From contig NZ_NWUC01000003.1 in NCBI RefSeq assembly GCF_002750855.1, positions 310,001 to 374,000 on the forward strand: a DNA stretch of 64,000 nucleotides, written 5' to 3'. The DNA comes from Neopararhizobium haloflavum. GTDB lineage: Bacteria; Pseudomonadota; Alphaproteobacteria; Rhizobiales; Rhizobiaceae. Both the position numbers and the translations under genes were made by a program. Positions 1,438 to 25,521 of the stretch are shown here, one piece after another (position 1 is the first letter of the stretch; every line of letters starts with the position of its first letter). The notes beneath the pieces are model-generated. The model saw only the letters and a program-made list of their open reading frames with translations, ran no database searches and was not told the DNA's origin.

Positions 1438-1462
1438 TAACGGCCCAGATTATCATTTAGAA

Positions 1463-4049: not shown

Positions 4050-4175
4050 TCAGGCGAAGTAGACCCATGCCGCCAACGCGTTCATCACGCAGGCGGCCAA
4101 CATTTGCGGTGTCGTCGGCCGGTAGAACGCCAGTCCGGCCGAGGCGAGGGCAAGTGCCGAGAGCGCGACAGTCAT
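4050..4175 (-). CDS. 41-residue hydrophobic protein coupled to the thermonuclease
   Basis: A short frame (start MTVALSALALASAGLAFYRP, end AAWVYFA) whose ATG overlaps the TGA of the nuclease gene (ATGA, 4172-4175), the same coupling seen elsewhere in this operon. Two hydrophobic stretches separated by a YRPTTPQ turn suggest a tiny membrane protein, perhaps holin-like or an immunity/spanning peptide. No family is recognised. Support is the overlap, the composition and the absence of a competing gene. Confidence 0.5.
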   Translation of the reverse strand: MTVALSALALASAGLAFYRPTTPQMLAACVMNALAAWVYFA

Positions 4176-4609: not shown

Positions 4610-4678
4610 TCTTGCCCCCTTCTTGCGTTGCAGACCATCGCGAAATCCCGATTGGTCGTCAACGGTATGACTGGCGCC

Positions 4679-5128
4679 TCAGGCACGTGGGCAACTGGCG
4701 ATGTCCCGCATGCGATCGATGACATAGCGGCGCGAGCGGTTCGGCGGCACGGGTTGTCGATTGAGCCTCATGGCGATGAGGCAAAGCGCATAGTGCCAGT
4801 GTTCATGGGCGGCGGATCGCTGCAACCCGACCGCCCAGCAGATCGTTTTCCACGACGCCCCGTGCACCCGCATCCAGACGATCTTGCCGTCGATCGCTTC
4901 GAGACCGACCGTCCAGGTGAGCGTTTCGTCCATACGGGCGATTGCCGCTGGATGGGGCGGCGGCCGCTTCATCGGTTCGGCTTCGCGGCCGACCAGATCG
5001 GAGAACTCCACCATGATCTCCGGCCAGGTATTGAAGAAGCCGCGAATGCGTTCGCCTGGCAGCCGCTTCAGCACGTCGGCAGCTTCAATGAGACGTTCCT
5101 CGACCAGCTTGGGTGTCCAGTCACTCAT
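4679..5128 (-). CDS. DUF6362 family phage protein
   Basis: A 149-residue protein with the N-terminus MSDWTPKLVEERLIEAADVL and a conserved core of WPEIMVEFSDLVGRE, DETLTWTVGLEAIDGKIVWM and ASWKTICWAVGLQRSAAHEH. The last piece looks like a helix-turn-helix recognition region. I recognise it as DUF6362, seen in the replication/packaging operons of alphaproteobacterial prophages. The start at 5128 was chosen because the MSDWTPKL start is characteristic and lies 8 bp inside the end of the upstream gene. A longer in-frame reading to 5299 has no conserved content. Molecular role unknown, perhaps DNA binding. Confidence 0.72.
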   Translation of the reverse strand: MSDWTPKLVEERLIEAADVLKRLPGERIRGFFNTWPEIMVEFSDLVGREAEPMKRPPPHPAAIARMDETLTWTVGLEAIDGKIVWMRVHGASWKTICWAVGLQRSAAHEHWHYALCLIAMRLNRQPVPPNRSRRYVIDRMRDIASCPRA

Positions 5129-5321
5129 TGCGCACCGCCTTTGTCTGAGGACGCGCGCCATAGAGCTTTTCGCCGAGTTGACGGATGAGTTCGCGCTCGG
5201 GCCAGTTGAGCCGCTCATCGTCGACTGCGACGGCAAGCAAGCCCTGTTCACGCCAGCCGTCCCGCTTGACTTCCTCTGGCGAGCGTCGCTCCCCGCCATA
5301 ACCTTTCTGGTGCCACCTCAT
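5121..5321 (-). CDS. Hypothetical 66-residue phage protein
   Basis: A small charged protein (start MRWHQKGYGGERRSPEEVKR, end PQTKAVRNE) with a near-perfect ribosome binding site, AAGGAGGTGACGCG, before ATG 5321. It overlaps both neighbours by a few bases, in keeping with tight operon packing. No family is recognised. The middle reads ERLNWPERELIRQLGEKLYG, a plausible helix pair. Confidence 0.6.
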   Translation of the reverse strand: MRWHQKGYGGERRSPEEVKRDGWREQGLLAVAVDDERLNWPERELIRQLGEKLYGARPQTKAVRNE

Positions 5322-5575
5322 CGCGTCACCTCCTTCAGGACCGCGACGTACCCGGCGACATCCACGAGTGAGTCATGATGTCCGGGATCATGCGCCAGCC
5401 GAGCAAGCTTCAAATCGACGAGGCAGAGCGCCACCTCAGCCGGCGTCACCGGACGACGAAGGGTGATCGACCAACGCTTCGCAACCATGTCCATCGAGAC
5501 TGACGGATCGCCATATGTGCGTCGGCGCTCGATGACGACGTTCGCGGCTTCTCGCAGCATCGTTTCGCCATTCAT
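5318..5575 (-). CDS. DUF6378 domain protein
   Basis: An 85-residue protein with the pattern REAANVVIERRRTYGDP...MVAKRWSITL...VALCLVDLKLARL...HHDSLVDVAGYVAVL. This is the DUF6378 layout, distantly like MazG/dATP-pyrophosphohydrolase helices (acidic residues, the RxxTYGDP motif and the DSLVDVAGY helix). A nucleotide-pool role in phage replication is an inference. It overlaps the start of the next gene and the end of the preceding one by 4 bp each. Confidence 0.75.
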   Translation of the reverse strand: MNGETMLREAANVVIERRRTYGDPSVSMDMVAKRWSITLRRPVTPAEVALCLVDLKLARLAHDPGHHDSLVDVAGYVAVLKEVTR

Positions 5576-6108
5576 CGCACACCTCCATCTGTCTCAATCG
5601 CCCAAAGCAGGATGGCGATGGCATCGGCCTCGTTGTCATCGACGGGCGAGAAGCCGCGGGCGCGCATGGAGGCGATCATCGCAGCCTTGTCGGCGTTGCC
5701 CTTGCCGGCGGCATGACGTTTGATCGTACCGACCGGTACACCCTCGTATGGAACGCCGTGGAGTTCCGCCCACCCGGTGAGCGTTGCCATCAGTCCGCCA
5801 TAGACGTGAGCGGCATCGGTGCCAGCATGACGGCGAACTTCCTCGAACCAGACGGCCGCGATCGGTCCGGACAGCCGCTCGATCTCGGCCAGCCAGTTCG
5901 TGAAGCGGAGATACCGCATACCGCCGCCATCGAAACGCCTTGGCCGGAACGAAACAGTTCCAGAGGCGATCAGCCCATCTGCGTCACGCAGAGCCCAACC
6001 GGTAAGAGTACCGAGGTCGAGAGCGAGGATGGGGCGGTGGCTCCGCGCCACATTGGGCTGCGGGGGGATTGCCCTGTGGCTCGCGATCATCAGAGTAGGA
6101 TCAGCCAT
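5572..6108 (-). CDS. RuvC-like Holliday junction resolvase family protein
   Basis: A 178-residue RNase H-fold nuclease of the RuvC type. Acidic catalytic positions can be followed: ILALDLGTLTGWAL (first Asp, about residue 30), AAVWFEEVRRHAGTDA (Glu, about residue 85) and DNEADAIAILLWA (paired Asp near the C-terminus). It would cut branched DNA during phage replication or recombination, so that concatemers can be resolved before packaging. Start ATG 6108 has GGAGACCACTC upstream. It lies in the same leftward operon as the Prim-Pol gene. Confidence 0.82.
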   Translation of the reverse strand: MADPTLMIASHRAIPPQPNVARSHRPILALDLGTLTGWALRDADGLIASGTVSFRPRRFDGGGMRYLRFTNWLAEIERLSGPIAAVWFEEVRRHAGTDAAHVYGGLMATLTGWAELHGVPYEGVPVGTIKRHAAGKGNADKAAMIASMRARGFSPVDDNEADAIAILLWAIETDGGVR

Positions 6109-6253
6109 GAGTGGTCTCCTTCTTGGGTTGGCTGCTCGGGTGGAAGACGACGGTGGCCTGGTGCTTGGCGGTACGGGGCTGCCGTCGTCTGATTTTTGGC
6201 GGCGTCGATCGAACGCGGGAAACGGTGGTGGTGAGATTAGAACGGCAGTTCAT
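6101..6253 (-). CDS. Possible 50-residue basic protein
   Basis: The frame from ATG 6253 (MNCRSNLTTTVSRVRSTPPK) to a stop overlapping the start of the RuvC-like gene fills what would otherwise be a 128-base gap in a tightly packed operon. GGGAGAACGGCG precedes the ATG. It is rich in Arg, Lys, Thr and Pro with no recognisable motif, so it may be a DNA- or RNA-binding peptide or spurious. Confidence 0.35.
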   Translation of the reverse strand: MNCRSNLTTTVSRVRSTPPKIRRRQPRTAKHQATVVFHPSSQPKKETTHG

Positions 6254-6800
6254 CGCCGTTCTCCCACCACCATGAGTCTGCGGTGATGGTGCGAGTCGGA
6301 ACGACCTTTGCGCCGGGCCATTCATCCTTGATCGCTATCACGGTTGGCACGGCGTCTATCAGTCTTGCGATCTCCGACAGCAGGTAGACCCGCACGCTGC
6401 GATCCTGCGGATCGACGGCGGCAGCCACATCCTCGTCCTTGACGATCGCCGCCACGGTTCCATCGCCGAGCGCCACCTCCCACACGCCGGGATGGATCGG
6501 TTCGGCGCCGAGCCGATCGGCTTCACCGTCGAGATAGCGCCATGCATTGACCATGCGGTCGATCTCATGAAGCGCGTCCTGGTCGCGCCCCTCGCGCAGC
6601 GCCATGGCGAGTTTGCGGTGCTGCGAATAGAAGCGTTTGGACAGTTCGTCGGGGACGAGCGACGGCAGCCGGCAGGCGCCCCATTTGCGTTCCATCTCGC
6701 GGGCCAGAGCGTCGAGCTTGTGCAGCGCGGCCATCATGTCGACGACGATCTGGGATCTGCTTCGGGTCGTCAGCTGAGCGGTGTCGAAGTCAAAGCCCAT
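6237..6800 (-). CDS. Hypothetical phage protein, 187 residues
   Basis: Not recognised. The first half is helical (MMAALHKLDALAREMERKWG..., then HRKLAMALREGRDQDALHEI) and the second half contains a compact beta-rich segment (GVWEVALGDGTVAAIVKDED, then VPTVIAIKDEWPGAKVVPT). The family may belong to the replication module, since it directly follows the Prim-Pol gene. Its start codon lies 23 bases from the first arm of a repeat array (6823-7020), so its transcription or translation is likely controlled there. Confidence 0.6.
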   Translation of the reverse strand: MGFDFDTAQLTTRSRSQIVVDMMAALHKLDALAREMERKWGACRLPSLVPDELSKRFYSQHRKLAMALREGRDQDALHEIDRMVNAWRYLDGEADRLGAEPIHPGVWEVALGDGTVAAIVKDEDVAAAVDPQDRSVRVYLLSEIARLIDAVPTVIAIKDEWPGAKVVPTRTITADSWWWENGDELPF

Positions 6801-6822
6801 GTCGAACCCTCACCTCGAGCCG

Positions 6823-7020
6823 TTTGTCACCATTTGGCCTTGCGTGCGCGAGAGAGATAAACCTGTCGCCAAAGTCCGAAGGACCGGAAGCTTTGTCTGT
6901 GTCTCTGTGCGCGAGGCCAAATGGTGACAAAAACCCGTCGCGAATGGTGACAGCTGCCGTTTGTAGCTGTCGCGAATGGTGACATCCGGCCGTTCCGGCA
7001 GGGTGTCGCGAATGGTGACG
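6823..7020. repeat. Array of AATGGTGAC repeats with an 18-bp inverted repeat
   Basis: Five copies of a common core sit between two leftward genes. An 18-bp perfect inverted pair (AGGCCAAATGGTGACAAA) occupies 6823-6840 and 6914-6931. Three direct copies of GTCGCGAATGGTGAC follow at 6937, 6969 and 7005. With the base before it, each direct copy is nearly palindromic: TGTCGC at one end and GGTGAC(A) at the other. The cores are spaced 23, 32 and 36 bases apart. Their position at the 3' end of the primase-helicase gene suggests an iteron-type origin or a cluster of operators; the sequence does not decide between them. Confidence 0.75.
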
Positions 7021-7025
7021 ACTGA

Positions 7026-9482
7026 TCATTGGTCTCTCCCAAAAATCTGGTTGGCGACATCCCGCAGCCCCTGCCTGCGCCGCGTCTCGTCGACGGCACG
7101 ATTTGCAAAGAGATCGTGGACGCGGGGATTAATTGCCCATCTGAGGGTGACGGAGTTCTTCGGTGGGGCGATCGGCTCGACCCAGCCAAGACTTTCCATC
7201 TGCTCCATCACGCGCTGAATTTGCTGGCGGGTCATGGCACGCATGACCCGTGAGCCGCGCTGGCAGTCGCGGACGGTCATCACGTCGGGGCGGTTTGTGA
7301 GGATGTAGCTGGCTGTGCTTTGAAGCTCGTCCTGGTCGTCCGACATGCCGATAATACCGCTGTAGAACGATGCCGCATGGGGCAGCAGGAATTGATGCAG
7401 GAAGGCAGCCACCCGCTCAGCCGTGCCGACTGACACCTCCGGCGGGATCACCCCGCAATTGATGTTGAGAATTGCGTGCCAGATCACTGAGAGCCGGGCG
7501 AAGATGCCGTCATACTTGCCGACATGCGAGGCGAGCTTGCGATTGATGCCCTCGATGTCCATCAGGGCAAGATGCCGTTCTTCCAGCTCCTCGCGGATGC
7601 GCAGCGCATCGTCGGAGAAGTAAAGCGTGAGGCATTCGGCATCGGCGCGACTGGCACCAAAGGACGCGGTGCCGGAGATGCTGATCGCGTTCAGTTTCTC
7701 AACCAGAGTCTCGTAATGATCGGTCACACCGGGAAGAGGTGCATCCTTGCCGACCGATGCGCGCTTAAGGACGACCGGCAGCAAGCGCTGCAGCAGCCCG
7801 TCATCGACCGTTTCCCTCGCAACAGTAGCGATCGCTTCCGGCTGGATGCCGCCGAGGATCGAGACCGACAGATTGTCGATCATCGTGACGCCGCGCGTGA
7901 CGCGGTCGACGACATATTGGCCACCATTGAAGGATTGCAGCCAGAAGGCTCGGTCCTTCGCCGCACCCCGTCCACCGCTGTTGTACTTGTCCATCGCGCC
8001 GAACCAGCCGGAGAGCTCGTCCTGGACGAGCAACACGCCGTCCGGGCTGTCGGCCAGCACGATCTGGGCGGCCTCGATGGTGGTGTCCTCGATGCGCAGG
8101 CGTTTGTGTTCCGGCGGTTCTTCTTCCTTGCGATCGTCCTTCGTCAGGCTGTCATAGCGGTCTTTATTGGCGAGATAGCTGCGCACCAACCGGCCATCAA
8201 GACGGGTGATCGGACGCACAGCCTGGTTGATGATCGGGCTCTTCTTGGTGCTGGGCGTTCCGATCAGCGCGGTCCAGAGCCGGGCGTTTTCGTACCAGTG
8301 ACCGTGCCGCTTGACCTTGATCCGAACGCGATCGGGGATCGCCGCCGCACAAACGGCAAGTGCGGCCATGGCAAGCCCGGCCGGATCGGCGCCCATCTGC
8401 TCGGCCTGACCAAAGGCGAACGCCTCGATCTGGCGCGGCAGTATGCCGGTCGGTAGCGGCGGCGGCGCGAGTTTCGCCCAGAGGTCGACAGGATCATCAA
8501 TATGGGCTGGCGTCGCGATTACCGCGGTACCGTCGTTGGCGGCGCGTCCCGCACTCTTCGCCTTCGCCGCCGTCGCAACCTTGCTGTCCCATTGCCGCAT
8601 GGCGTACGCCCATTTGGCCTTGAAGGCGGTAAGCCCGCGCCCTTCGGCTTCCAGCGTGTTTGCACCATCCTGCGGGCGCACTTTGCGCTCATAGACAGCG
8701 TAGCTCTCGAGCATCTTCCGCTCGATCTCGCACTCCGAGGGCGGGATCGGGCATTCGCGATACCAGTCGACAATTGCTGCCCAGACGATGTCGCGCATAT
8801 AGGCATCACGCCCGTCGACGATGTGGCCCCAGGCATCGGTTATCTGTTCCGACGGCGACGATTCCGTGGTTGCGCGCGTCGCAGCCGGCATCGGTTTTTC
8901 CGAGGCGCCGACCCTCTCCAACAGCCATTCTGGCGCGTCGGCCAGTTCGGTCTCGAAGGGCGAGAACAGCCATCGGTACGGCTTGCCACTTTGATGAAGC
9001 GATGGTGGCGCGACGACGAAGCCGCCCTCGGCCCGCACATCGATGCCGGCGATGGTTTTCTGTGTATTCCTGATGGCGAGATGAGCAGGATAACGGAAGT
9101 AGATGTGCTGTCCTCCACCGCCGGTTCTGGCCCGCCAGGTTTCCAGATCGCAGCCGAGCTCGTTGTCGGCAATCCAGCTGTCCCAGGTCAAAGAGCCGGA
9201 GGCGCTGCCCTTTTCATCAAGGTCGATGACCAGAAGCTTGCAGCCATTGCCGAGCGAGGCCGCGCCGGTCAAAAATCCCATGCGGTAGTTTCTGAGGTGT
9301 TCCCCCTGATTGCCGTACCAGCGGTCATGGACGGCTTGCGGAATGCCGCTCTGGAATTCGCGCCATTTGCCGAGTGGGATCTTCTCCTGGTTTTCGGCAG
9401 GTATCACCGCCAGATTAAGCGAGCGATAGCTGTTCGCCCATTTCGCCGCGCTTGCAAAATCATCCGGGGGATCTATCGCCAT
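7026..9482 (-). CDS. Bifunctional primase-polymerase / DUF3987 primase-helicase
   Basis: An 818-residue replication protein. The N-terminal 210 residues form a Prim-Pol domain: catalytic acidic pair in LLVIDLDEKGSAS (about residue 82) and the RTGGGGQHIYF motif (about residue 122). From about residue 370 comes a DUF3987 (YfjI-type) ATPase: Walker A-like LIGTPSTKKSP and Walker B-like LLVQDELSGWFG. Such proteins prime and unwind DNA for phages and satellites. The frame is open to 9833, but ATG 9482 (MAIDPPDDFASA) has GAGGACG nine bases upstream and marks the start of the conserved domain. The repeat array just downstream may be its target. Confidence 0.85.
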   Translation of the reverse strand: MAIDPPDDFASAAKWANSYRSLNLAVIPAENQEKIPLGKWREFQSGIPQAVHDRWYGNQGEHLRNYRMGFLTGAASLGNGCKLLVIDLDEKGSASGSLTWDSWIADNELGCDLETWRARTGGGGQHIYFRYPAHLAIRNTQKTIAGIDVRAEGGFVVAPPSLHQSGKPYRWLFSPFETELADAPEWLLERVGASEKPMPAATRATTESSPSEQITDAWGHIVDGRDAYMRDIVWAAIVDWYRECPIPPSECEIERKMLESYAVYERKVRPQDGANTLEAEGRGLTAFKAKWAYAMRQWDSKVATAAKAKSAGRAANDGTAVIATPAHIDDPVDLWAKLAPPPLPTGILPRQIEAFAFGQAEQMGADPAGLAMAALAVCAAAIPDRVRIKVKRHGHWYENARLWTALIGTPSTKKSPIINQAVRPITRLDGRLVRSYLANKDRYDSLTKDDRKEEEPPEHKRLRIEDTTIEAAQIVLADSPDGVLLVQDELSGWFGAMDKYNSGGRGAAKDRAFWLQSFNGGQYVVDRVTRGVTMIDNLSVSILGGIQPEAIATVARETVDDGLLQRLLPVVLKRASVGKDAPLPGVTDHYETLVEKLNAISISGTASFGASRADAECLTLYFSDDALRIREELEERHLALMDIEGINRKLASHVGKYDGIFARLSVIWHAILNINCGVIPPEVSVGTAERVAAFLHQFLLPHAASFYSGIIGMSDDQDELQSTASYILTNRPDVMTVRDCQRGSRVMRAMTRQQIQRVMEQMESLGWVEPIAPPKNSVTLRWAINPRVHDLFANRAVDETRRRQGLRDVANQIFGRDQ

Positions 9483-9568
9483 CGCCCGCGTCCTCACGTC
9501 CAAGGCTAAAATCGAATGTTTGGCGCGCAGGGATCGGGAGGTTGTTCCCTCCCGATCCCCTTCGGTGT

Positions 9569-10210
9569 TCAGCCGAAGTCCGGCACCGAGGTACGGGACG
9601 TTTCCGGTTTCGGTGGCGTCATCTGAGTGGAACCGGTCATGGCGGGACGGCTCGAACTGCCAGAAGCCGGCATGGCCGCGCGGGGCCTCGGCGAGGCCCG
9701 GTGTTCTTCCAGCTCCGCGGGGCGATCCTTCCAGGCGACAATCTCGAACACTGGAACGGCGCGGTTGCCGTGCTTGGTCTTTTCCCTCACGAACTCGGTG
9801 AGGCGGACCACCGGCACCTCGCCGTTCTTCCACTCTTCAGTGGCGATCGCCGTGTCATAGACCGTCTCCAGCGCCGCCACGACGCCGATGGCGGTCGAGC
9901 AGAGCTCATGGCAGCCGAGGCCACCGGGGAGCTGCACGACAAGCTGAATACCCTGCTTGTGCTTCTCGGAAGGTCGGTCTGGCAGCGGATCACCAATTGC
10001 GACGAGGCGCTTGTCGGGACCTCTGTCGGTAAACTCGATCCAGCCAACCTTCAGGGTGGCGAAGTCGAACAGCGCCACGAAATCGTCGATCACCTCGAGA
10101 CCGCGTTCGGTGCCATCCCAGGTGGAGCGCTCGACGCCGCCGTCCTTGCCGTTGATGCGGATCGACGGCAGGAAATCGCCGCCTCCACCAATGCTCAGTC
10201 CAAAGCCCAT
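9569..10210 (-). CDS. Hypothetical phage protein next to Prim-Pol
   Basis: A 213-residue protein with start MGFGLSIGGGGDFLPSIRIN (ATG 10210, AAGGA eight bases upstream) and a well-structured first 150 residues: STWDGTERGLEVIDDFVALF, KVGWIEFTDRGPDKRLVAIG, GIQLVVQLPGGLGCHELCST. The last 50 residues are a Pro/Ser/Arg-rich tail that is probably disordered. The domain-plus-tail layout beside a primase recalls phage single-strand binding proteins, but no OB-fold motif is clear. The function stays open. Confidence 0.6.
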   Translation of the reverse strand: MGFGLSIGGGGDFLPSIRINGKDGGVERSTWDGTERGLEVIDDFVALFDFATLKVGWIEFTDRGPDKRLVAIGDPLPDRPSEKHKQGIQLVVQLPGGLGCHELCSTAIGVVAALETVYDTAIATEEWKNGEVPVVRLTEFVREKTKHGNRAVPVFEIVAWKDRPAELEEHRASPRPRAAMPASGSSSRPAMTGSTQMTPPKPETSRTSVPDFG

Positions 10211-10285
10211 ATCATCGTTCCTTTGCGTTGCGTGCATTGTGCCGGCATCAGGCCGCCGGCTGGCCGGTCCGGTCCGCCCGGACAG

Positions 10286-11029
10286 TCAGACGCCGAACAC
10301 ATCGAATGCGTGCTGTCTGGCGCGCGGATCGCTGAGGTAGAAGCTGTCGGTGTCGACGGTGACGAGACTCGCCAGCTCGTGGCTGTCGGCACTGATGGCG
10401 AGGAAGTTCTGCAGCGAATGCGCCATGCGCGTCAGTGCGGCGACGTGCGCCGCTGCGTTCTCCAGCCGGTAGAGCGCGTTCTTTTTCGCGGTCACGTAGG
10501 CGACGCCGCCACCCATATTGGCGCCGGCACCAAGATAGGAGGCGACCTGCCGGGCATGGCTGGTGCGAATCTGCGAGGCCAGTGCGTGTGCGGTCTTCAG
10601 ATCGACGATCAGGCCGTGCGCGTCATATTCGAGATCCGAGAAGCCGAGGACAGGAACGACGATGCCGTCCATCCGCCACTCTTTTCGTACCTGTATCCGA
10701 TCAGGCCTGCCCCAGGGCGAAAGAAGACGAATGCCTTGCTCGACCATGCCTGCGAGGCTGCCCTTTTCCTTGTCGAGGCGCGGGTCGGACGATAGTGCAG
10801 TCTTTTCCGTGAAAACGGCGTTGGCGATATCGGTAGCGGCACTGACGGCCTCGCCCATCAAACCGGCGATTACGCCCGCTTCGACGGCCGTGCCCCGATG
10901 TGCGGCCGCGCCAACCGGAGCCTTTAGCCCCAGCAGCCGCTCCATCACGTAAACGCCCGGTGCCGCAGCCCAAAGATTGAGCTGGCTGACAGAAATATGT
11001 GTGATGCCGTGACGCTCGAACGGATTCAT
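10286..11029 (-). CDS. PD-(D/E)XK nuclease family protein (RecB/Cas4-like)
   Basis: A 247-residue protein with the hallmarks of the RecB/Cas4 nuclease fold: ISVSQLNLWAAAPGVYVMER at the N-terminus (the SxSxLxxW entry helix), AAHRGTAVEAGV, then GFSDLEYDAHGLIVDLKTAH, which supplies the catalytic D...D-x-K. The final third has HARQVASYLGAGA, the QxxxY helix. It would act as a DNA exonuclease in phage recombination or replication. Its start overlaps the stop of the upstream gene (ATGA). Confidence 0.8.
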   Translation of the reverse strand: MNPFERHGITHISVSQLNLWAAAPGVYVMERLLGLKAPVGAAAHRGTAVEAGVIAGLMGEAVSAATDIANAVFTEKTALSSDPRLDKEKGSLAGMVEQGIRLLSPWGRPDRIQVRKEWRMDGIVVPVLGFSDLEYDAHGLIVDLKTAHALASQIRTSHARQVASYLGAGANMGGGVAYVTAKKNALYRLENAAAHVAALTRMAHSLQNFLAISADSHELASLVTVDTDSFYLSDPRARQHAFDVFGV

Positions 11030-11427
11030 GCCGCACCTTTGAATGCTGCTGGAACCGAGAGCCGCCGCTTACGGCACTTGACGGCGATGTAAGCCCATTC
11101 TCCGACGAGGCCGGTCCGCTGCTGGACAAGGTGGACGACACCATCCTCGGCCAGCGAGAGCGCTCGGCCGGCAAGAGTGGAAAGCCGCCTGCGGGCAATG
11201 TCGGTATGGACCTTGGCACTCTTCGTCCGGTCGTGGCTCAGATGACCTCGGTAGTAGACGACGAAGTCGCCAGGCGCGGCCGCCGCGACCCAGGCGCAAA
11301 ATTCCACTTCACTCATCATACCGGATGACGGCCGATCGAAGTCTGGAACGCCGACTGCCATGTCGTTGAATGAGTACCGCTGCGGAATCGGTGTGCTTGT
11401 TGTGGGACTGACGGCTGATGCGTGCAT
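11026..11427 (-). CDS. Hypothetical phage protein, 133 residues
   Basis: Not assigned to a function. The conserved-looking core (MSEVEFCAWVAAAAPGDFVVYYRGHL, residues 38-63, then LAEDGVVHLVQQRTGLVGEWAYIAVK) is of a kind I associate with small proteins of alphaproteobacterial prophage replication operons. The start is uncertain: 11427 is used here, but the ATG pair at 11319/11316 just before SEVEFCAWV would remove a non-conserved N-terminus; neither has a good ribosome site. It is coupled to the nuclease gene by a 4-bp overlap. Confidence 0.6.
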   Translation of the reverse strand: MHASAVSPTTSTPIPQRYSFNDMAVGVPDFDRPSSGMMSEVEFCAWVAAAAPGDFVVYYRGHLSHDRTKSAKVHTDIARRRLSTLAGRALSLAEDGVVHLVQQRTGLVGEWAYIAVKCRKRRLSVPAAFKGAA

Positions 11428-11463
11428 GGAGATCGATCCTGGGGTCTGGGGGCTGCAGGTTAT

Positions 11464-12006
11464 CTACCGAGGGGAGAGCTCGTTCTTCTCATCGGGGGCG
11501 AGGCCGGCCGCGAGAAACTGCATGCGCAGGTCATGCATCCGGCGATAGAAGGTGGCGGGCGAGAGGGCGCTCTTTCTTTGAGCGGCCGCCACGCTGCCGG
11601 TCTCGGCAAGAAGATCAATGAGGTGCGCAAGTGCCGGCGGCAACCGAGCCATGGCATCTCGGATGTCGACGCGAAGGTCCTGATCTGGAGCCGATGGATC
11701 GGCAATTGCGTACTCAGCGCCATCGAGCGGTTCGAGGACGGGAGCGCGATGCGTTCGACGCGCCAGATCGGCTGCCGCATGCCGCGCAATCAGTGCGATG
11801 AAGGTTGGCCAGGACGATTTGGTGTCGTCGAACCGTCTTGCCTTGCCCATGACGACCAAGACGATGGTCTGTCGCAGATCATCCCTGTCCGCCTCGGGCA
11901 TGGAAAGTGTTCTGACAAGTCGTTGCGCCTGAAAGGCGGCCGTGCGCAGGGCCGCATCGAGTTGCGGTCCGTTCATCTGTTGGTCAGTTGGCTGTTGACG
12001 GATCAT
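11464..12006 (-). CDS. Sigma-70-like (ECF-type) regulator of the phage operon
   Basis: A 180-residue protein resembling a small sigma factor. Residues 15-85 look like region 2 (VRTLSMPEADRDDLRQTIVLVV, then SSWPTFIALIARHAAADLAR). Residues 118-165 look like region 4 (AMARLPPALAHLIDLLAE, then QRKSALSPATFYRRMHDLR, a helix-turn-helix). It is the first gene of the long leftward operon, divergent from the ImmA/repressor genes, so it may drive late or replication transcription. It could also be a degenerate DNA-binding relative; the core-binding residues cannot be judged by eye. Confidence 0.65.
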   Translation of the reverse strand: MIRQQPTDQQMNGPQLDAALRTAAFQAQRLVRTLSMPEADRDDLRQTIVLVVMGKARRFDDTKSSWPTFIALIARHAAADLARRTHRAPVLEPLDGAEYAIADPSAPDQDLRVDIRDAMARLPPALAHLIDLLAETGSVAAAQRKSALSPATFYRRMHDLRMQFLAAGLAPDEKNELSPR

Positions 12007-14253: not shown

Positions 14254-14702
14254 CGAACCATGATCCCATCCCCGCGCGTCTTACGGCGCTGAAGACGACG
14301 CCGACGCTCGAACTAAAGGCGCAGTGGCGCGATCTCTTCGACAGCGAGCCGCCGGCGTTCAATCGCCGCTATCTGGAGAGCAGGCTGGCCTACCGGATCC
14401 AAGAGCTGGCCTATGGCGGGCTGAAGCCCGAGACAATCCGACGGCTGGAACGGATGGGAGAGGAACTCGATGGCGGCGATCGCAAAAAGAGCCGCATCCG
14501 CGCCGACCTGAAGCCCATCACCGGCACGCGACTCATCCGCGAATGGCAGGGCGTCGAGCACGTCGCCACGGTAACGGCCGACGGTTTCGAATGGGAGGGG
14601 CGTCCCTACAGATCGCTCTCTGCCATTGCCCGCGCGATTACCGGTACGCGGTGGAACGGGTGGTTGTTCTTCGGTCTCAAAAACCACCGGAGGAGCGTAT
14701 GA
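14250..14702 (+). CDS. DUF2924 family protein
   Basis: A 150-residue protein with typical DUF2924 features: LKAQWRDLFDSEPPAFNRRY and LESRLAYRIQELAYGGL in the first half, then GTRLIREWQGVEHVATV, FEWEGRPYRSLSAIARAITG and TRWNGWLFFGL. It is nearly always found directly before a large serine recombinase, as here (ATGA overlap with the next gene), so a recombination-directionality or accessory DNA-binding role is plausible but unproven. Confidence 0.88.
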   Translation: MTNHDPIPARLTALKTTPTLELKAQWRDLFDSEPPAFNRRYLESRLAYRIQELAYGGLKPETIRRLERMGEELDGGDRKKSRIRADLKPITGTRLIREWQGVEHVATVTADGFEWEGRPYRSLSAIARAITGTRWNGWLFFGLKNHRRSV

Positions 14703-16024
14703 CCAAGCCGCCGGAGACATCGAAAATCGTGCGGAAACTCCGCTGTGCGGTCTACACCCGCAAATCCTCCGAGGAAGGTCTGAGCCAGGAGTTCAATTCG
14801 CTCCACGCGCAACGCGAAGCCTGCGAGGCGTACATTGCCAGCCAACGTTCCGAGGGCTGGGTGCTCGTTCGCGATCAGTATGATGACGGCGGCATCTCCG
14901 GCGGTACGCTGGAACGGCCCGCGCTGCAGCGGCTACTCTGCGACGTAGAGGACGGTCTGGTCGATGTGGTCGTGGTCTACAAGATCGATCGGCTATCGCG
15001 CTCGCTGATGGATTTCGCCAAGCTGGTGGACGTCTTCGACAGGAACGGCGTTACCTTCGTGTCGGTGACCCAGTCCTTCAACACTACGACGTCGATGGGG
15101 CGACTGACCCTGAACGTCCTCCTGTCCTTCGCGCAGTTCGAACGGGAGGTGACGGCCGAGCGCATTCGCGACAAGGTCCGCGCAAGCCGAATGAAGGGCA
15201 TGTGGATGGGTGGGTGGACGCCGCTCGGCTATGACGTGACGGACAGGAAGCTGGTCCTCAACGAGTCCGAGGCGGATCATGTCCGCTTCATCTTCAACCG
15301 CTTCATCGAGATCGGCTCCGCCACCGCCATGCTGAAGGAGCTGAGCGCTCGTGGCATCACCACCAAGACCGGCAACGTAATCACCAAGGGATATCTTTAC
15401 CGGATCCTAAATAACCGGGTCTATATCGGCGAGGCGGTGCACAAGGGCGAGAGTTTTGCCGGCGAGCACGCAGCGATCGTTGATCGTGCCACATGGGACA
15501 AGGTCCACATCATCCTGTCAGAGAGCCCAAGGAAGCGCGCCGCGCGCACCCGGGCTGGGACGCCGGCGCTGCTCAAAGGGCTGCTTTATGGTCCGGACGG
15601 CGCTGTTTTCTCGCCGACCCATACGCGCAAGGGCGGCAAGCTTTATCGGTATTATGTTAGCCAGACCGTGCTTAAGCACGGCGCTGGATCATGTCCGATC
15701 GGCCGCGTGCCTGCGGGAGATATCGAAGCGGCAGTCATCGATCAGCTCCGCACCGTGTTACGCCAACCCGAGATCATCGTCGGCACGTCGAAGACGGCAC
15801 AGGCACGCGATAGCGATGTCACTGAAGCCGATGCGCGGACGGCGCTACAGCAACTCGATCCGCTGTGGGACGAGCTGTTTCCGCCCGAGCAGACGCGTAT
15901 CGTCACGCTGCTAGTCGAGCGGGTCGACATCGGTAGGGAAGGATTCGATATCCGCCTCAGGATCGATGGCCTCGCCGGGCTAGCACGCGAGATGATGGCC
16001 GGTGAGATTGAGCGCGCGGCATGA
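14699..16024 (+). CDS. Large serine recombinase (site-specific integrase)
   Basis: A 441-residue serine recombinase. The N-terminal resolvase domain has CAVYTRKSSEEGL with the catalytic serine (about residues 18-26), VVVVYKIDRLSRSLMD, and the E-helix FAQFEREVTAERIRDKVRAS. The central recombinase domain follows (MWMGGWTPLGYDV, then ITKGYLYRILNNRVYIGEAV) and then a short C-terminal part without an obvious Cys-rich zinc ribbon. It would integrate and excise the element. The frame opens earlier, but ATG 14699 overlaps the DUF2924 stop and begins the conserved domain. A decayed partial copy lies at 16965-17345. Confidence 0.9.
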   Translation: MTKPPETSKIVRKLRCAVYTRKSSEEGLSQEFNSLHAQREACEAYIASQRSEGWVLVRDQYDDGGISGGTLERPALQRLLCDVEDGLVDVVVVYKIDRLSRSLMDFAKLVDVFDRNGVTFVSVTQSFNTTTSMGRLTLNVLLSFAQFEREVTAERIRDKVRASRMKGMWMGGWTPLGYDVTDRKLVLNESEADHVRFIFNRFIEIGSATAMLKELSARGITTKTGNVITKGYLYRILNNRVYIGEAVHKGESFAGEHAAIVDRATWDKVHIILSESPRKRAARTRAGTPALLKGLLYGPDGAVFSPTHTRKGGKLYRYYVSQTVLKHGAGSCPIGRVPAGDIEAAVIDQLRTVLRQPEIIVGTSKTAQARDSDVTEADARTALQQLDPLWDELFPPEQTRIVTLLVERVDIGREGFDIRLRIDGLAGLAREMMAGEIERAA

Positions 16025-16413
16025 CCTGCGCGACGCCAGTTCCCGAGACGGTAACGGTCCACGTTGCCTTCCGCGTCGTGAAGCGTGGCGGGCGCAAGGA
16101 GATGCGACTTCCCGATGGCGCCGCGCAGCCACGACGGACCGACGATGCGCTGGTCAAGGCGCTGGCGCGCGCCTTCCGCTGGAAGCGGATGCTGGAGTCG
16201 GGCGAGTTTTCCACCATCAAGGAACTGGCCGAGCACGAACGGCTGGCGTTCTCCTATATGACCCGCGTCCTGCGCCTGACGCTGCTTGCACCCGACATCG
16301 TGGAGGCAATCCTGGATGGTCGGCAGGCGCTTGAGATAACGCTGGCGAAAGTGACCAGTCCGTTTCCGGTGGAGTGGAAGAGACAGCATCACTGGCATTC
16401 AGAGGCGAAGTAA
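16021..16413 (+). CDS. Recombinase-associated small protein
   Basis: A 130-residue protein that starts within the recombinase stop codon (ATGA). It has a helix-turn-helix-like core: ALARAFRWKRMLESGEFSTI, then KELAEHERLAFSYMTRVLRL and TLLAPDIVEAILDGRQ. Such proteins routinely follow this recombinase type in alphaproteobacterial elements and probably bind DNA near att sites. A degenerate copy of the same gene is at 17343-17753. Confidence 0.75.
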   Translation: MTCATPVPETVTVHVAFRVVKRGGRKEMRLPDGAAQPRRTDDALVKALARAFRWKRMLESGEFSTIKELAEHERLAFSYMTRVLRLTLLAPDIVEAILDGRQALEITLAKVTSPFPVEWKRQHHWHSEAK

Positions 16414-16964: not shown

Positions 16965-17345
16965 AGGTCCCGGAACCGCGCCGCCCGCACACGCGCCGAC
17001 CCGTCCGCGATGCTGAAGGGGCTGCTTTAGGGTCCGAACGGCGCCTTTTTCTCACCGACCCACACCCGCAAGGGGCGGCAAGCTTTATCGGTACGAGGTC
17101 AGCCAAACTATTCTCAAACACGGCGCAGGATCATGCCCGGTCGGCCGCATGCCTGCGGGAGATTTCGAAGCGGCGGTCATCGATCAGCTCCGCTTCGTGT
17201 TCCGCCAGCCCGAGATTATCGTCGGCACGTGGAAGGCGGCGCGTCTTCATGCCGATGGCATCAGCGAAGCTGACGCTCACGCTGCCTTGCGGACGCTTGA
17301 TCCACTGTGGGGCCGAATTGCCCCTCCGGAGCAGCAGGCCGCATG
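16965..17345 (+). pseudogene. Decayed copy of the serine recombinase C-terminal part
   Basis: The DNA closely repeats the intact recombinase from its ARTRAGTPALLKGLL region to its end. The aligned reading has a Tyr codon turned into TAG (17028-17030) and an extra G in the AGGGGCGG run (about 17071), which shifts the frame, so it cannot make a protein. After the shift a frame from 17149 matches the intact IGRVPAGDIEAAVIDQLR segment again. It lies in the same order and orientation as the live copy, followed by a decayed copy of the partner gene. Confidence 0.85.
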
Positions 17346-17753
17346 ACCCGCAGCACGCCGATTCTGTACACTGTGACGTTGCACATCCCGTTTTGCATCA
17401 TGAGGCACGGCGGACGAAAGGAGATACAGCTTTCCGAGAGTGCCGCGCAATCGCGGCGGACCTAACACGCCTTGGTCACGGCGCTGGCACGCGCGTTCTG
17501 CTGAAAGCGGATGCTGGAGTCCAGAGAGTTCGCAACCATCTCAGAACTGGCCGTGCGCGAAGGCATCGCACCCTCCTACACGACGCGCGTTCTACAACTG
17601 ACCCTCATTGCTCCCGACATCGTCGAGGCGAACTTGGGAGGGGAGCAGGGGCCCGAGCTGACATTGGCGCGGGTGCTCGAGCCGTTCCCGCTGGAGTGGG
17701 AACACCAGGCGATGCACTTCGGCTCAGCGCCGTCTTCGCACCAACGCGCGTGA
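17343..17753 (+). pseudogene. Decayed copy of the recombinase-associated small protein
   Basis: Reads as the partner protein at 16021-16413 (GGRKEIQLSESAAQSRRT, then KRMLESREFATISELAVREG and VEANLGGEQGPELTLARVLE) but is broken by TAA at 17463-17465 and by TGA at 17502-17504, where the intact copy has a Trp codon. A frame from 17511 onward is still open, so the decay may be fairly recent. Confidence 0.85.
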
Positions 17754-17813: not shown

Positions 17814-19934
17814 ATGAAAAGCTGCATAGACGTGGCTGCGTCCCGGTACGGGCGTAGGGCGAGCAAAATTGATTGGCCGGTTGAGTTCATGGAAAGCCTT
17901 CTGCAAGGTCGCCTTCGTAATACCTACCTCGGTGCCTCGAAGGGGATAATCCCCTTGTACGAGGCGGTGGTCAACTCGATCCAAGCGATCGAGGACGATG
18001 CCGCCGCAGGTGCGGGGTCCGTCCGATCACACAACATCACGGTCAAGGTGATCCGATCACCGCAGAGCTCGCTTCAAATTGAAGGGCGAGGCGGTGCGCG
18101 CGAAAAGATTATGGGGTTCGAGGTCACGGACGACGGCATCGGCTTCACGGACGATAACTGGAAGTCCTTTCAAACGCTGGACAGTTTGTGGAAGGTTCAG
18201 CGAGGCTGCCGCGGTATCGGGCGCTTGATGTGGCTGAAGGCATTCAAACGCGTGCGGGTCGACTCAGTGTTCACGGAAGACGACGAGCTCAAGTGCCGAC
18301 GGTTTCGCTTCGATGTCGCGCACGGTGTGAAGCCGGAAGGGGACGTTGGGGCTGCTTCCGGTCCCAAGCGGACCGTACTTTGGCTTGAAGGCTTCGAACC
18401 CCGCTTTGCCGAGCAGGCACCGAAAACAGCACGGATGATCGCCGTGGGTCTCCTAGAGCATTGCCTTTGGTACTTCGTCCGAGAGCAGGGCACGCCTGAG
18501 ATTTTAGTCGAGGACGGGACCGATCGCCTGGTTTTGGATGAACTGTATGATGAGCACATGCACTCCGCCGCTCACGCGGAACCAATCGAAATCAAAGGCG
18601 AGCGTTTCGAGATCACGCACGTAAAGTTTCGCGCTGCCGTCAACAAAACTCACGGGTTAAACTACTGCGCAGCAGGGAGACTCGTGAAAGAAGAGGCTAT
18701 CCAAGGGAAGATCCGCGGGCTGGCCGGGGCCGTGACGGACGATCGAGGACAGTTCACCTATGCCGCGTACCTTACGAGCCCCTTCCTGGACGATCGCGTC
18801 GTTGAGCAGCGAATAGGCTTCAACATTGAGGACGAGGTGGACGGAATGTTTGCCGCCACTGACATTTCTTTCGGGGACATCCGAGAAGCGGTCCTACCAC
18901 GCGTTCAGGAGTTCCTTTCAGATGCGCTCCAGCAGAACATTGCGGCCGGCAAAGAGCGGGTGGCGACGTTCGTCGCTAAGAAGGCGCCCCGATACCGCCC
19001 CATCCTTGCGCATATACCCTCCGACGAACTGGTCGTTGACGCTAACATCTCGGACGCCAACCTGGACGCCTTGCTGCACAAGCACCTGTTCCGAGTGGAG
19101 CAGAACCTTCTAAGGGAAGGGCACAAGGTGCTGTCGCCTGGCGACGATGAAACTGAGGAGGCATACGAGAAGCGCCTTGACGACTACTTGCAGAAGGTAT
19201 CGGACCTGAAGCAGTCCGACTTGGCAAACTATGTCACGCACAGGCGCGTGATCATTGACCTCTTAGCGAAGGCCATCGAACGGGACGCATCGGGTCGATA
19301 CGTCCGCGAGGACGTTATCCATGAACTAATTGTGCCGATGCGCGTCACGTCGGACGACCTTGCGTTTCGCCGCCAGAGCCTTTGGCTTCTCGATGAACGG
19401 CTCGCGTTTCACGACTTCCTCGCATCAGACAAGCCCATTGCGACCATGCCGATAACCGAGAGCGCTTGCGGCAAGGAGCCTGACATTGCCTCCCTGCGCA
19501 CGTTCGACAACCCGCTTCTCGTATCGGACAAGGTGACCGGACCAGCCGCATCGCTCACGGTCGTGGAGATCAAGCGGCCAATGCGCAGCGGCTTCAAGGC
19601 GGGAGAGTCCGAAGAGCACGATCCGATCCTGCAGGCGTTGGGCTACCTAAGGCGGTTACGGGAGGGCGCGAAGGCGAAGAACGGCCGACCGATTCCGAAT
19701 GCCGACAAGATTCCGGGGTTCGTCTACGTGGTTGCGGACCTGTCCGATCATCTCAGGCGTTGCTGTGAACTCCACCATCTCAAGATCACGGCCGACGGTA
19801 TGGGCTACTTCGGCTACCACCCGAGCTCCTTTTACAATGCCTATATTCAAGTGATCTCATTCGACGGACTGGTGGCGTCAGCTACCGAGCGCAATCGAGC
19901 TTTCTTCGACCGCTTGGGACTGCCAAGCGTCTAG
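17814..19934 (+). CDS. GHKL-type ATPase with C-terminal PD-(D/E)XK nuclease motif
   Basis: A 706-residue protein that starts the defence cassette. GHKL ATPase motifs are clear: the N box YEAVVNSIQAIED (about residues 45-57), the G1 box VTDDGIGFTDDNW (about 103), and the G2 box GCRGIGRLMWLKAF (about 128). The region from about 400 to 520 is helical. Near the C-terminus comes EPDIASL (about 557) followed by LTVVEIKRPMR (about 585), the spacing and residues of a PD-(D/E)XK nuclease. An excellent ribosome site, GAGGAGGT, precedes ATG 17814. It is convergent with the three other cassette genes, and its ATPase-nuclease layout fits the ATPase component of Hma-like systems. Confidence 0.8.
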   Translation: MKSCIDVAASRYGRRASKIDWPVEFMESLLQGRLRNTYLGASKGIIPLYEAVVNSIQAIEDDAAAGAGSVRSHNITVKVIRSPQSSLQIEGRGGAREKIMGFEVTDDGIGFTDDNWKSFQTLDSLWKVQRGCRGIGRLMWLKAFKRVRVDSVFTEDDELKCRRFRFDVAHGVKPEGDVGAASGPKRTVLWLEGFEPRFAEQAPKTARMIAVGLLEHCLWYFVREQGTPEILVEDGTDRLVLDELYDEHMHSAAHAEPIEIKGERFEITHVKFRAAVNKTHGLNYCAAGRLVKEEAIQGKIRGLAGAVTDDRGQFTYAAYLTSPFLDDRVVEQRIGFNIEDEVDGMFAATDISFGDIREAVLPRVQEFLSDALQQNIAAGKERVATFVAKKAPRYRPILAHIPSDELVVDANISDANLDALLHKHLFRVEQNLLREGHKVLSPGDDETEEAYEKRLDDYLQKVSDLKQSDLANYVTHRRVIIDLLAKAIERDASGRYVREDVIHELIVPMRVTSDDLAFRRQSLWLLDERLAFHDFLASDKPIATMPITESACGKEPDIASLRTFDNPLLVSDKVTGPAASLTVVEIKRPMRSGFKAGESEEHDPILQALGYLRRLREGAKAKNGRPIPNADKIPGFVYVVADLSDHLRRCCELHHLKITADGMGYFGYHPSSFYNAYIQVISFDGLVASATERNRAFFDRLGLPSV

Positions 19935-20053
19935 CGACTAGCGCTTTCGTTTTGGAGGGTCCATGCGCAGCTATTGCATCGCGCTGGGTTCACGTACCGT
20001 CACATTGGCGCGTAACAGTTCGGCTTGTCGTCCGCTTCAGTCTTCGATCGTAG

Positions 20054-22586
<2,533 letters not shown>

Positions 22587-22594
<8 letters not shown>

Positions 22595-24242
22595 CGTCGC
22601 CGTCGTCCACCGAGACGTCGCCCAACAGATCGCTCGCCACTTCCATGGGGCGGACGATCTTCTCGACGAAGGCGATCTCGTCTTCCGACAGGCCGTAGTG
22701 GGCATACAGAGCTTCGTCGGTCCACGTCCGAGTCCAGTCTTGAACTGGCACGAAGGAATAGACGTAACGGGTCACGTGCTGAGAGGACTTGTGTAGCAGG
22801 ATTAGGAAGCGCGTAAGGCGGCACGAAAGGTAGGAAAGCGCGCTTTCCGCCTGCTCCTTGGTGTCGAACGGGCCAATGCAAAGGTAGGTCTCGGAAGAGA
22901 TAGAGTCCGGCTTTCCGATAAACGGCGTGCTGATGATCCGGTGTGGATAGGTGTCCCTATTCCCCGTACCGGGTGCTGCATAACCCACGAAGAGCTTCCA
23001 TGCGCCGATTAGGCCAAGACCTGTAGTGATTGCACTTCGTGGCGTGTAGCCGATGCCACCATTCTGGTGGACCATCAAATCATCAGCAGACTGCTTCTTC
23101 TCTTTGCCTTTGAACTTGGTCTCAAGTCCGAACGGCTTTCGGGAGCTAACGAGCCTCCCAAAGCGCTGAGCTTCTGGCAATGACAAGACCTTGTCCTGCC
23201 CAGTTTCTCGCGAAACGACTTTGCGAAGAATGGAAACGCCTTCATTGTAACGAATAAAGATCTCGGCGCCTTCTTCGAGCAAGGGCCGCGTGGCCTCTGA
23301 AACCGGCCAATCCTTGAAATGCGTGGCGACCCAGCAAGGGCCGCGGTTGTCCTTGTCCCACAGGAAATAGCAGACACCGCCTTTCAGGCCCACGCCCGGG
23401 AATACGTCCGCAGCGCTCAGGAAGTCATCAATCGAGCGAAGGCGATCATCCTTCAGCATCGACTCGCGAAAGTCGTCGAGACCTTTGCCTCCGGAAAACC
23501 AGCGGGATGGGATAACCATGGTCAGGTAGCGTGGTTCGAGGTTCTTCGCCTGCTCGACGAACTTCTGGTAAATCGGGGCGGCGCTGGTTCCGTGCCCACC
23601 ATCGTCCAGCTGATACGGTGGATTTCCGATGATCACGTCGAAGTGCATGTCGCCTCCAAAGAGCTCGGCAACCCGAGTCTTGATGTTGTCGGTATGAATG
23701 AATGCATAGGCGTGGGTCTCGAGTCCCTCGCCGCGGTCGAGCGATGCCTGGCTGGCGCCGCAGAACTTGCACTTTCCGTCCGTCCAAGTGTGCTCGGAGC
23801 GCTCGAACCAGATGTTTCCAGCGTCACTATTGAAGCGCCTAGTCACGGAGTGCGCGCCATTGGCATGCTTCGAGCAATAGACGCTGCGTCGCGCCAGCAT
23901 GGCGGTCAGTTGGGTAATGCCGATGCCGAACACCTGCTGCGACAGGATATGGTCAACGCGTTCCCGAAGGTCCGGGATTTCGTCAGCCAGCCCCGCGGTG
24001 AGGCGGACGGCGATTTCGCGAAGGAACACGCCAGACTTGGCGAAGGGGTCCAGAAACTTCACATTCCGGTCGGCCCAGATGTTCGCGCCGTCGTGCCCTG
24101 CCGCCCAAGCCTCCGCAAGTGTATCAAGCATCCGGTTCGCGAACTCGGGTGGCGTGAAGACCTCGTCGTTCGACAGGTTCGCGATGCAGGTCAGCACGTC
24201 GGGATTGCGCCCACGCAGGGCAAAGCCAGCCCGCACGCTCAT
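22587..24242 (-). CDS. Eco57I-type N6-adenine DNA methylase
   Basis: A 551-residue methyltransferase with the catalytic [15 protein letters not shown] (about residues 195-209) and an N-terminal [16 protein letters not shown] entry helix. Motif I is altered to [16 protein letters not shown] (DPFAKSG in place of the usual D/EPxxGxG). Between motif I and NPPY lies a zinc-like insertion, YCSKHANG...CKFCGAS (C-x2-H...C-x2-C). The C-terminal third (about residues 320-520) would be target recognition. It starts within the stop of the upstream methylase-like gene (ATGA) and overlaps the helicase gene by 8 bases, so all three are co-translated. Confidence 0.82.
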
Positions 24243-24892
24243 GCAGCCTCCATCGGCGTGCCACCGCAGCCAGCGGCGAGGTCGCGGACCGTCATCGGCG
24301 GGTAGGTCCTGATTGGGGTGAAGAGCTCATGCTTGCCGAGATGCGCGAACAACGATCCTTCCGCGCTGAACCTTGATGAGCCAGTAAGGACGTCTAGGCG
24401 GAAGTCGCGCCGCTGGAACTTGCCCCTGCCGATATAGCCCCATTCGGCGAATGTGATCGGCTCACTGTCATGCCTTCGCATCGTGACCGCGTCACCATGG
24501 AGGAGATTGCACGACAGCACGAAGGATGCGGCGCGATACAAGTCGTCCGATGTATCCAAACCGAGATAGTCCGAAAATATCTCGATCAGGTTTGCCCGGC
24601 ACTCAGCGAGGTTGTCTTCGAGCAGTTCAATGCCGTAGATGCACATTAAGCCTAGAAGCGCATAATGCCTCTTCTCGAAATCAGATTTCCCGAATTTGAT
24701 TTCGACGGCGGCAAGCTTTCGCTGCAGAACTCGAACCAGAAAATTGCCACTCCCGCAGGCCGGTTCGAGAAAACGTGAGTCAATTCTGTCCGTCTCTTCC
24801 TTGACAAGGTCGAGCATGGCATCGACCAGCCATGGCGGCGTGAACACTTCGCCATGGTCGGCAACTCGTTTCTTTGATCTTATCAGGCTCAT
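24239..24892 (-). CDS. Short N6-DNA-methylase-like protein (motif I present, NPPY absent)
   Basis: A 217-residue protein beginning [20 protein letters not shown], then [20 protein letters not shown], and a textbook SAM-binding motif [13 protein letters not shown] (about residue 45). The middle has [20 protein letters not shown]. No NPPY or DPPY motif is visible, so it cannot methylate by itself as far as can be seen. It may be a separate SAM-binding or regulatory subunit, or the N-terminal remnant of a larger methylase. It is first in the leftward cassette, coupled to the full methylase by ATGA. Confidence 0.7.
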
Positions 24893-25431: not shown

Positions 25432-25521
25432 TGGCGGAGAGAGAGGGATTCGAACCCTCGAGACGGTTTCCCGCCTACACGCGTTCCAGGCGTGCGCCTT
25501 CGACCACTCGGCCACCTCTCC
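25432..25521 (-). tRNA. tRNA-Ser (anticodon GGA)
   Basis: Read on the minus strand it folds as a class II tRNA: acceptor GGAGAGG with TCTCTCC (one G-T pair), D arm GCCGAGTGGTCGAAGGC, anticodon arm ACGCCTGGAACGCGT with GGA, a long variable arm, T arm GAGGG-TTCGAAT-CCCTC, discriminator G, and an encoded CCA. It decodes UCC/UCU. Its 3' end faces the mobile region, the usual polarity for elements that integrate at tRNA genes. Confidence 0.95.

Follow-up and report, generated by a model that had tools for sequence, protein, structure and literature searches.

Four intact open reading frames (ORFs) lie within positions 17814..24892 of a 64,000-nucleotide stretch of the Neopararhizobium haloflavum genome, termed here the window, to which the coordinates below refer. 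Three of them (termed here MT1, MT2 and HEL and, collectively, the trio) are encoded on the minus strand and are convergent with the fourth, a GHKL ATPase gene on the plus strand; this is the arrangement that a first-pass annotation of the window had described, and the ORFs confirm it:

24239..24892, minus strand: MT1 (the M1 subunit), a half-methyltransferase of 217 amino acids with a glycine-type S-adenosylmethionine (SAM) motif I and without NPPY
22587..24242, minus strand: MT2 (the M2 subunit), an Eco57I-type methylase of 551 amino acids with an NPPY motif IV, a lysine in motif I and a variable C-terminal target recognition region at residues ~300-535
20054..22594, minus strand: HEL (the R subunit), 846 amino acids, with an N-terminal GIY-YIG nuclease domain and an SF2 translocase (GKT, DEYH, SGTPF)
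17889..19934, plus strand: the GHKL ATPase, a separate gene with a C-terminal PD-(D/E)xK-type motif (E474, D532, E560xK562, Q582); paraMORC3/VcSduA-like, probably optional cargo

The MT1/MT2 junction, ATGA, is a 4-bp overlap and the MT2/HEL junction, ATGCATAA, an 8-bp overlap, so that MT1, MT2 and HEL are probably co-translated; they constitute one restriction-modification (R-M) operon. Taken together, the four genes very probably represent two independent and already known defence modules--that is, a split R-M system of the DrdVI family and a solo GHKL-nuclease--residing in a serine-recombinase/prophage island at a tRNA-Ser gene.

In Pfam, MT2 matches Eco57I (E = 3.7e-36), MT1 matches N6_Mtase (E = 3.2e-5, above the family cut-off) and HEL matches both ResIII and MUG113, the last of which is, like T5orf172, a GIY-YIG family. 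The trio is present, in the same gene order, on plasmid pDrdVI of Deinococcus wulumuqiensis NEB 479, to whose proteins HEL, MT2 and MT1 are 78%, 71% and 71% identical, respectively, over alignments that span residues 1-843 of HEL, 2-538 of MT2 and 1-206 of MT1. Hence, judged by its sequence, the window's trio is a new member of the DrdVI family, a published R-M family that is already known. DrdVI was described as a 'split methylase/RM' with N6-methyladenine (m6A, or 6mA) at GCAGCC, and M1-2.DrdVI as Type IIG (GCAGCC, 6mA), its methyltransferase genes having been cloned in E. coli (PMC6430315); for M1-M2.MaeIV, another named member, the accessible part of the literature likewise gives m6A methylation. 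The window has the features of this family: separate M1 and M2 genes together with a GIY-YIG/translocase R gene, and an M1 SAM motif without NPPY beside an M2 with NPP and a motif I lysine (this division of motifs being the present analysis's own description of the family rather than one from the literature). It shares with DrdVI the same three genes in the same order, the same motif division and the same class of target recognition domain (TRD); it differs from DrdVI in occurring in another host, within a prophage/tRNA-Ser island and beside an ATPase gene, and in being known here from sequence alone. The first-pass annotation was right to see here a restriction-like operon to which a further methylase-like subunit belongs.

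A HEL pattern scan of a collection of species genomes yielded at least 585 confirmed relatives; the conservation figures given here refer to the best 80 of these, which represent the closest part of the family and are 82-97% identical in their best segment, nearly over their full length. Upstream DNA of at least 2.4 kb is available for 66 loci, of which 65 have an MT2 match and 64 an MT1 match; MT1-MT2 pairs were measured in 64 of the 80 loci and MT2-HEL pairs in 74, with strand and order constant, and the recurrence of these pairs indicates that the association is not due to chance. The alignments consist of full-length rows only (63 of 65 for MT1, 62 of 75 for MT2 and 80 of 81 for HEL), plus the window in each; the MT2 of locus L025 is in two pieces and was left as such. 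The 79 trio loci in the HEL tree (L002 being outside this count) carry 18 phylum labels, some of which may be wrong, as many of the loci come from metagenome bins. Along that tree the host phylum label changes 27 times (the minimum being 17 and the shuffled mean 47.8), that is, phyla are partly clustered, a pattern that neither vertical descent nor random transfer would explain by itself. The trio is rare in even samples, with full-length HEL in 2 of 398 genomes from the phylum and in 2 of 21 relatives, the window's own genome being counted in each. A HEL relative (55%) also follows a methyltransferase gene in a gut phage genome (L186; phage NatCom_35866, 10793-15249), and DrdVI-type systems may therefore also travel on phages.

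The methyltransferase motifs are divided between MT1 and MT2 in a conserved way. All 64 MT1 rows (window included) have a glycine-type SAM motif and lack [DNS]PP[YFWH]. All 63 MT2 rows (window included) have NPP, followed by Y in 62 and by D in one, and in all 63 motif I reads DPx[T/A]KSG, with a lysine in place of glycine. This lysine occurs as well in 14 of 14 further plasmid relatives (L094, L095, L096, L097, L106, L107, L108, L109, L110, L111, L112, L113, L114 and L115), among which there are 13 MT1-like genes, none with NPPY. In a control set of Eco57I-family proteins from 29 loci, glycine occupies the lysine's place in 24 of the 24 that were resolved (5 of the 29 loci are outside the 24, having no resolvable motif I); in the control pattern this place was open to any residue, with G, K and A given equal scores. 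Around motif I, MT1 and MT2 are paralogues of each other (35% over 60 residues, E = 5e-5). In an AlphaFold2 model of MT1 (mean predicted local distance difference test score, 80.5; predicted template modelling score, 0.79), strands alternate with helices over the motif I-II region, and an MT1 profile finds weak methylase matches in the PDB, the best being BseCI (E = 0.0038).

A SAM motif without NPPY in MT1, combined with an NPPY and a lysine in MT2, suggests a composite methylation site. It may be, though the suggestion is a tentative one drawn from conserved motifs, that in DrdVI-type enzymes the methyltransferase is an obligate heterodimer whose two subunits share a single composite active site, in which the catalytically mute paralogue MT1 would bind and present SAM while its partner MT2, which carries the NPPY and the TRD, would have lost canonical SAM binding through the invariant lysine. 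Modification, and possibly SAM-gated restriction, would then need the MT1-MT2 pair, and the MT2 TRD would be exchanged freely, across phyla, while the MT1-HEL chassis is kept nearly fixed. Alternatively, MT2 may be a methyltransferase complete in itself, with MT1 serving as a regulatory or structural subunit, such as a SAM sensor that switches the complex between modification and restriction. MT2 does have motif X-, I- and IV-like elements of its own, and MT1 is conserved at 61-97% with a glycine-type SAM motif but no catalytic loop; the invariant MT2 lysine, absent from every resolved control, nevertheless suggests altered SAM handling, and the published clones, as far as the accessible part of their description goes, carried M1 and M2 together. 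Overall, a role for MT1 as SAM sensor or as scaffold is only slightly less likely than a role in supplying SAM binding.

In the proposed mechanism, MT1 and MT2 would form a single adenine-N6 methyltransferase to which MT2 would contribute the catalytic NPPY loop and the single TRD and to which MT1, as a paralogue with an intact SAM motif, would supply, or in which it would stabilise, SAM binding. The complex would methylate one strand of an asymmetric site, predicted to be GCAGCC. On unmethylated DNA, HEL would dock on the M complex, translocate with the help of ATP and cut by means of its GIY-YIG domain, much as Type ISP or Type III enzymes do.

The prediction of the site comes from the TRD. 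Residues 1-290 of MT2 are conserved (66-96% to the window), and residues 300-535 are variable, falling into two groups with respect to the window: 17 of 62 loci are 62-97% identical to it over this region and the other 45 are 29-47% identical. Nineteen pairs of loci have HEL proteins that are at least 90% identical, and in 14 of these pairs (which share loci, so that they are not independent) the TRD regions are at most 40% identical; in L051 and L052, for example, HEL, MT1 and the TRD are 95%, 95% and 36% identical, and in L021 and L028 they are 94%, 92% and 30% identical. Such divergence of TRDs between near-identical systems indicates that the TRD is swapped against a background of retained MT1 and HEL. 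The TRD of the window, 66% identical to that of DrdVI, belongs to the class shared by the 17 loci, from which GCAGCC or a near variant of it is the window's predicted site.

The trio operon also acquires inserts of more than 250 bp, mostly genes, at the MT1/MT2 junction in 10 of 64 loci and at the MT2/HEL junction in 9 of 74 (loci L014, L024, L033, L034, L036, L043, L046, L057-L059, L066, L070, L077, L080 and L082). By eye, the inserted genes are presumably DUF1016-, RhuM-, Fic-, KilA-N-, PIN- and ImmA-like; genes such as these are the kind of cargo found in Type I R-M operons. In two of the inserts, those of L034 (~3401) and L057 (~2501), a copy of the first HEL codons is found, repeated exactly over 17 and 24 bases, which looks like a duplication of the HEL start upon arrival of the extra gene; as a general cause of insertion such duplication was rejected, since exact repeats occur in 2 of 9 inserts.

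In HEL, GKT, DEYH and SGTPF are present in 81 of 81 rows, and the GIY-YIG residues Y18, K32-x-G34, R38, D74 and E92 are invariant over the same rows. Six Firmicutes plasmids that were opened (from Enterococcus, Pediococcus, Loigolactobacillus, Lactococcus, Paenisporosarcina and Lysinibacillus) have HEL and MT2 fused in the order nuclease-translocase-methylase-TRD; a separate upstream MT1-like gene was found by blastp in 6 of 6, the match being weak in Pediococcus and Loigolactobacillus (E ~1e-4 and 4e-5). One of the fusions, on Lactococcus lactis plasmid pCV56A (L110, 3518-7876), carries ~160 additional residues at its N terminus, and its alignment to HEL begins at residue 42, beyond the Y18-R38 part of the GIY-YIG motif, so that its nuclease may differ from GIY-YIG.

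The fused relatives reproduce the domain order of Type ISP enzymes such as LlaGI and LlaBIII, given in the accessible part of PMC3874165 as nuclease-translocase-methyltransferase-TRD, and the trio resembles these enzymes further in having one TRD region, so that its site is probably asymmetric. The same source describes Type ISP enzymes as single polypeptides with an Mrr-like nuclease, whereas the window has three polypeptides, a GIY-YIG nuclease (its MUG113 domain) and an extra half-methyltransferase. Because nuclease and number of chains differ, the trio is not Type ISP; by analogy, however, the Type ISP translocation mechanism may serve as the best model for HEL. Type ISP enzymes combine ATP-driven translocation with cleavage at two head-to-head sites; of the features needed for this, HEL has the SF2 motifs. 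Sequence searches of the PDB gave no match for HEL or MT2 at E ≤0.1.

The ATPase was recognized by its motifs rather than by library matches: the window's GHKL protein has no Pfam or PADLOC match, and HATPase_c is matched by 8 of 10 aligned members, the window among the ten (E up to 1, best 2.1e-6). The GHKL boxes and residues E474, D532, E560, K562 and Q582 are invariant in all ten, in agreement with the ATPase-nuclease fusion that had been proposed from the sequence, and comparison of the aligned members identifies 17889 as the conserved protein start. According to the accessible part of PMC2292703, paraMORC3 proteins combine a GHKL domain, followed by an S5 domain, with a C-terminal domain of the restriction endonuclease fold bearing E-D-ExK, and include a stand-alone subset; in the window's family the E-D-ExK signature is present as residues (10/10), and the fold is predicted. 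VcSduA, a GHKL-type Shedu protein (type I-D), alone protects against phages, and E27A or K557A abolishes protection, as stated in the accessible part of PMC12137116. The window's gene thus resembles paraMORC3 and VcSduA in uniting a GHKL ATPase and C-terminal E-D-ExK residues in one stand-alone gene, with E25 and K562 at places similar to those of VcSduA E27 (the ATPase glutamate) and K557 (the nuclease lysine), the comparison being with that partial published description; it differs from VcSduA in that the ten aligned members lack a DUF4263/SduA_C match. By analogy with VcSduA, it would work alone, with ATP-driven closure of a dimer controlling the C-terminal nuclease.

Searches of PDB sequences with the ATPase found no match at E ≤1, and the ATPase profile found one match at chance level. 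Homologues occur in 26 of 397 genomes of the order, the window's own being counted; in 3 of 30 genomes, sub-threshold SduA_C matches (12.4-15 bits, E 0.05-0.6) overlap ATPase homologues. The window's own genome contains a second GHKL-nuclease relative, 31% identical (G000:C10:764589-766523), and, elsewhere, an SduA_C (Shedu) domain over the family cut-off (G000:C32:212046-212558).

The ATPase is probably a separate, optional neighbour of the trio. It was found in 0 of the 80 trio loci, 47 of which have at least 4 kb downstream. Within the serine-recombinase island lineage it is present in three elements (the window, L117 and L118) and absent from three (L004, L073 and L126), L004 and L073 having the order tRNA-Ser, trio, recombinase and L126 the trio and recombinase. 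The window and L004, which comes from a different family, have trios with 96-97% protein identity; a HEL DNA tree pairs them, with L117 and L118 outside, and a four-row MT2 DNA tree separates the two from L118. Parsimony therefore favours loss of the ATPase in L004 with retention of the trio, although two gains are conceivable. Of 29 other genomes that contain ATPase homologues, one has HEL as well, on a different contig. ATPase relatives occur in 59 plasmid records, six of which had their neighbourhoods opened; the stretches shown contain no DrdVI trio. Among these six, the ATPase relative lies inside a Type I operon in L098 (where it is 51% identical) and within 6 kb of R-M genes in L100 and L102, the last also having SIR2; it lies beside SAVED/ThiF/nucleotidyltransferase genes in L099, read as a cyclic-oligonucleotide-based anti-phage signalling system (CBASS), beside an Abi gene in L103 and near plasmid partition genes in L101. 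The four-gene cassette of the first-pass annotation is not supported as a fixed unit by these counts, as the ATPase is present or absent even within one island lineage.

Several points nonetheless weigh against a reading of the locus as two independent, known modules. The convergent ATPase/HEL layout is kept in L118 (ATPase, HEL, MT2) and in L117 (ATPase, HEL), which match the window at ~87% DNA identity up to their contig ends (MT1 would lie beyond those ends), so that the linkage has not arisen recently. In 3 of the 6 opened plasmid neighbourhoods, R-M genes lie within 6 kb, and cooperation is thus conceivable. None of the ten aligned ATPase members gave an SduA_C (DUF4263) match at E up to 1. 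For the R-M module, SAM binding by MT1 is deduced from motifs, and the MT2 lysine may be compatible with SAM binding; the published activity of family members is methylation, cleavage being a prediction; and 66% identity between TRDs is not enough to determine the site.

The first two of these points would also fit a single four-gene system, in which the GHKL ATPase-nuclease serves the trio as an accessory, acting for instance in DNA looping or as a second nuclease, as proposed for MORC/paraMORC; the accessible part of PMC2292703 does describe GHKL proteins in R-M operons with SFII helicases. The R-M genes near ATPase relatives make this possibility slightly more likely. It remains improbable, given an ATPase that was found in none of the 80 trio loci (47 of them with at least 4 kb downstream) and is missing from the window's sister L004 as well as from L073 and L126, that lies on the opposite strand and so outside the operon, and whose homologues are so seldom accompanied by HEL.

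Hma, with which the four genes had initially been compared, shares with them the words helicase, methylase and ATPase. Hma requires a 5-methylcytosine (m5C) methylase, HmaB being such an enzyme according to the accessible part of PMC8565338; none of the four proteins matches one, the methylase here being instead a split Eco57I-type enzyme, and the ATPase is outside the operon and not steadily linked to the trio. PADLOC gave no Hma match for the four proteins at E up to 0.001, nor any Hma or m5C match among those listed at E up to 10 (for MT1, 25 of 41), in a library copy whose inclusion of Hma models was not separately confirmed. Hma, or a variant of it, was accordingly rejected as exceedingly improbable, and the extra methylase-like gene, once taken as a possible sign of a distinct variant, encodes the M1 subunit known from published DrdVI enzymes. 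MADS was rejected as well, there being weak methylase-domain matches only (MT1 against the MAD2 methylase scores 24 bits, the cut-off being 720).

The surroundings of the four genes are as follows:

880..12006, minus strand: prophage genes (small terminase, ParB-methylase, RuvC-like, primase-helicase); head and tail genes lie further upstream, beyond the window
14324..16024, plus strand: serine recombinase/phage integrase, likely start 14699
16021..16413, plus strand: recombinase follow-on gene
16969..17708, plus strand: partial second copy, comprising the broken end of a recombinase and a further copy of the follow-on gene
25432..25521, minus strand: tRNA-Ser (GGA), with the island on the 3' side of the tRNA

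Tailed-prophage genes occupy the region left of the recombinase and extend beyond the window on its upstream side, where they include head protease, tape measure, tail proteins and endolysin; the defence genes therefore sit at the prophage end, between integrase and tRNA-Ser; the defence-island location inferred earlier is thus upheld. An IMG/VR contig (47,832 bases) with a 100%-identical copy stops at the MT1 start codon. A search of the whole genome to which the window belongs with 25 bases of the tRNA-Ser 3' end, allowing up to 3 mismatches, found no attachment (att) repeat flanking the island, its matches being this tRNA-Ser and two sites on other contigs with 2 mismatches each; a promoter/terminator scan gave results at chance level only. 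The broken second recombinase end and second follow-on gene (16969-17708) adjoin the ATPase gene, which suggests tandem integration of two related elements as their origin. At 1645-3066 the prophage encodes a ParB-like domain fused to a DNA methyltransferase (phrog_498, phrog_620).

The broken recombinase copy, and the occurrence of an MT1 match in one of four genomes of the genus (the window's own, with none in the other three), might suggest that the trio is a decaying prophage remnant. This is very unlikely, inasmuch as the three frames are open, every conserved motif is present and the trio retains, with motifs intact, its 96-97% identity to that of L004.

The ATPase is most likely a published kind of solo defence gene that lies beside a member of a published R-M family; the four genes are most likely not one system, and a defence reading of all four is reasonable. 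The result strikes one spurious candidate from the list of new defence systems and provides better names for both modules. It also converts a loosely described 'split methylase' family into one with a testable division of labour between two methyltransferase paralogues, the testable point that remains being the complementary pair of half-methyltransferases. More generally, the family illustrates how one restriction chassis, found in many phyla, can have exchangeable specificity, which would be useful for predicting methylation sites from TRDs.

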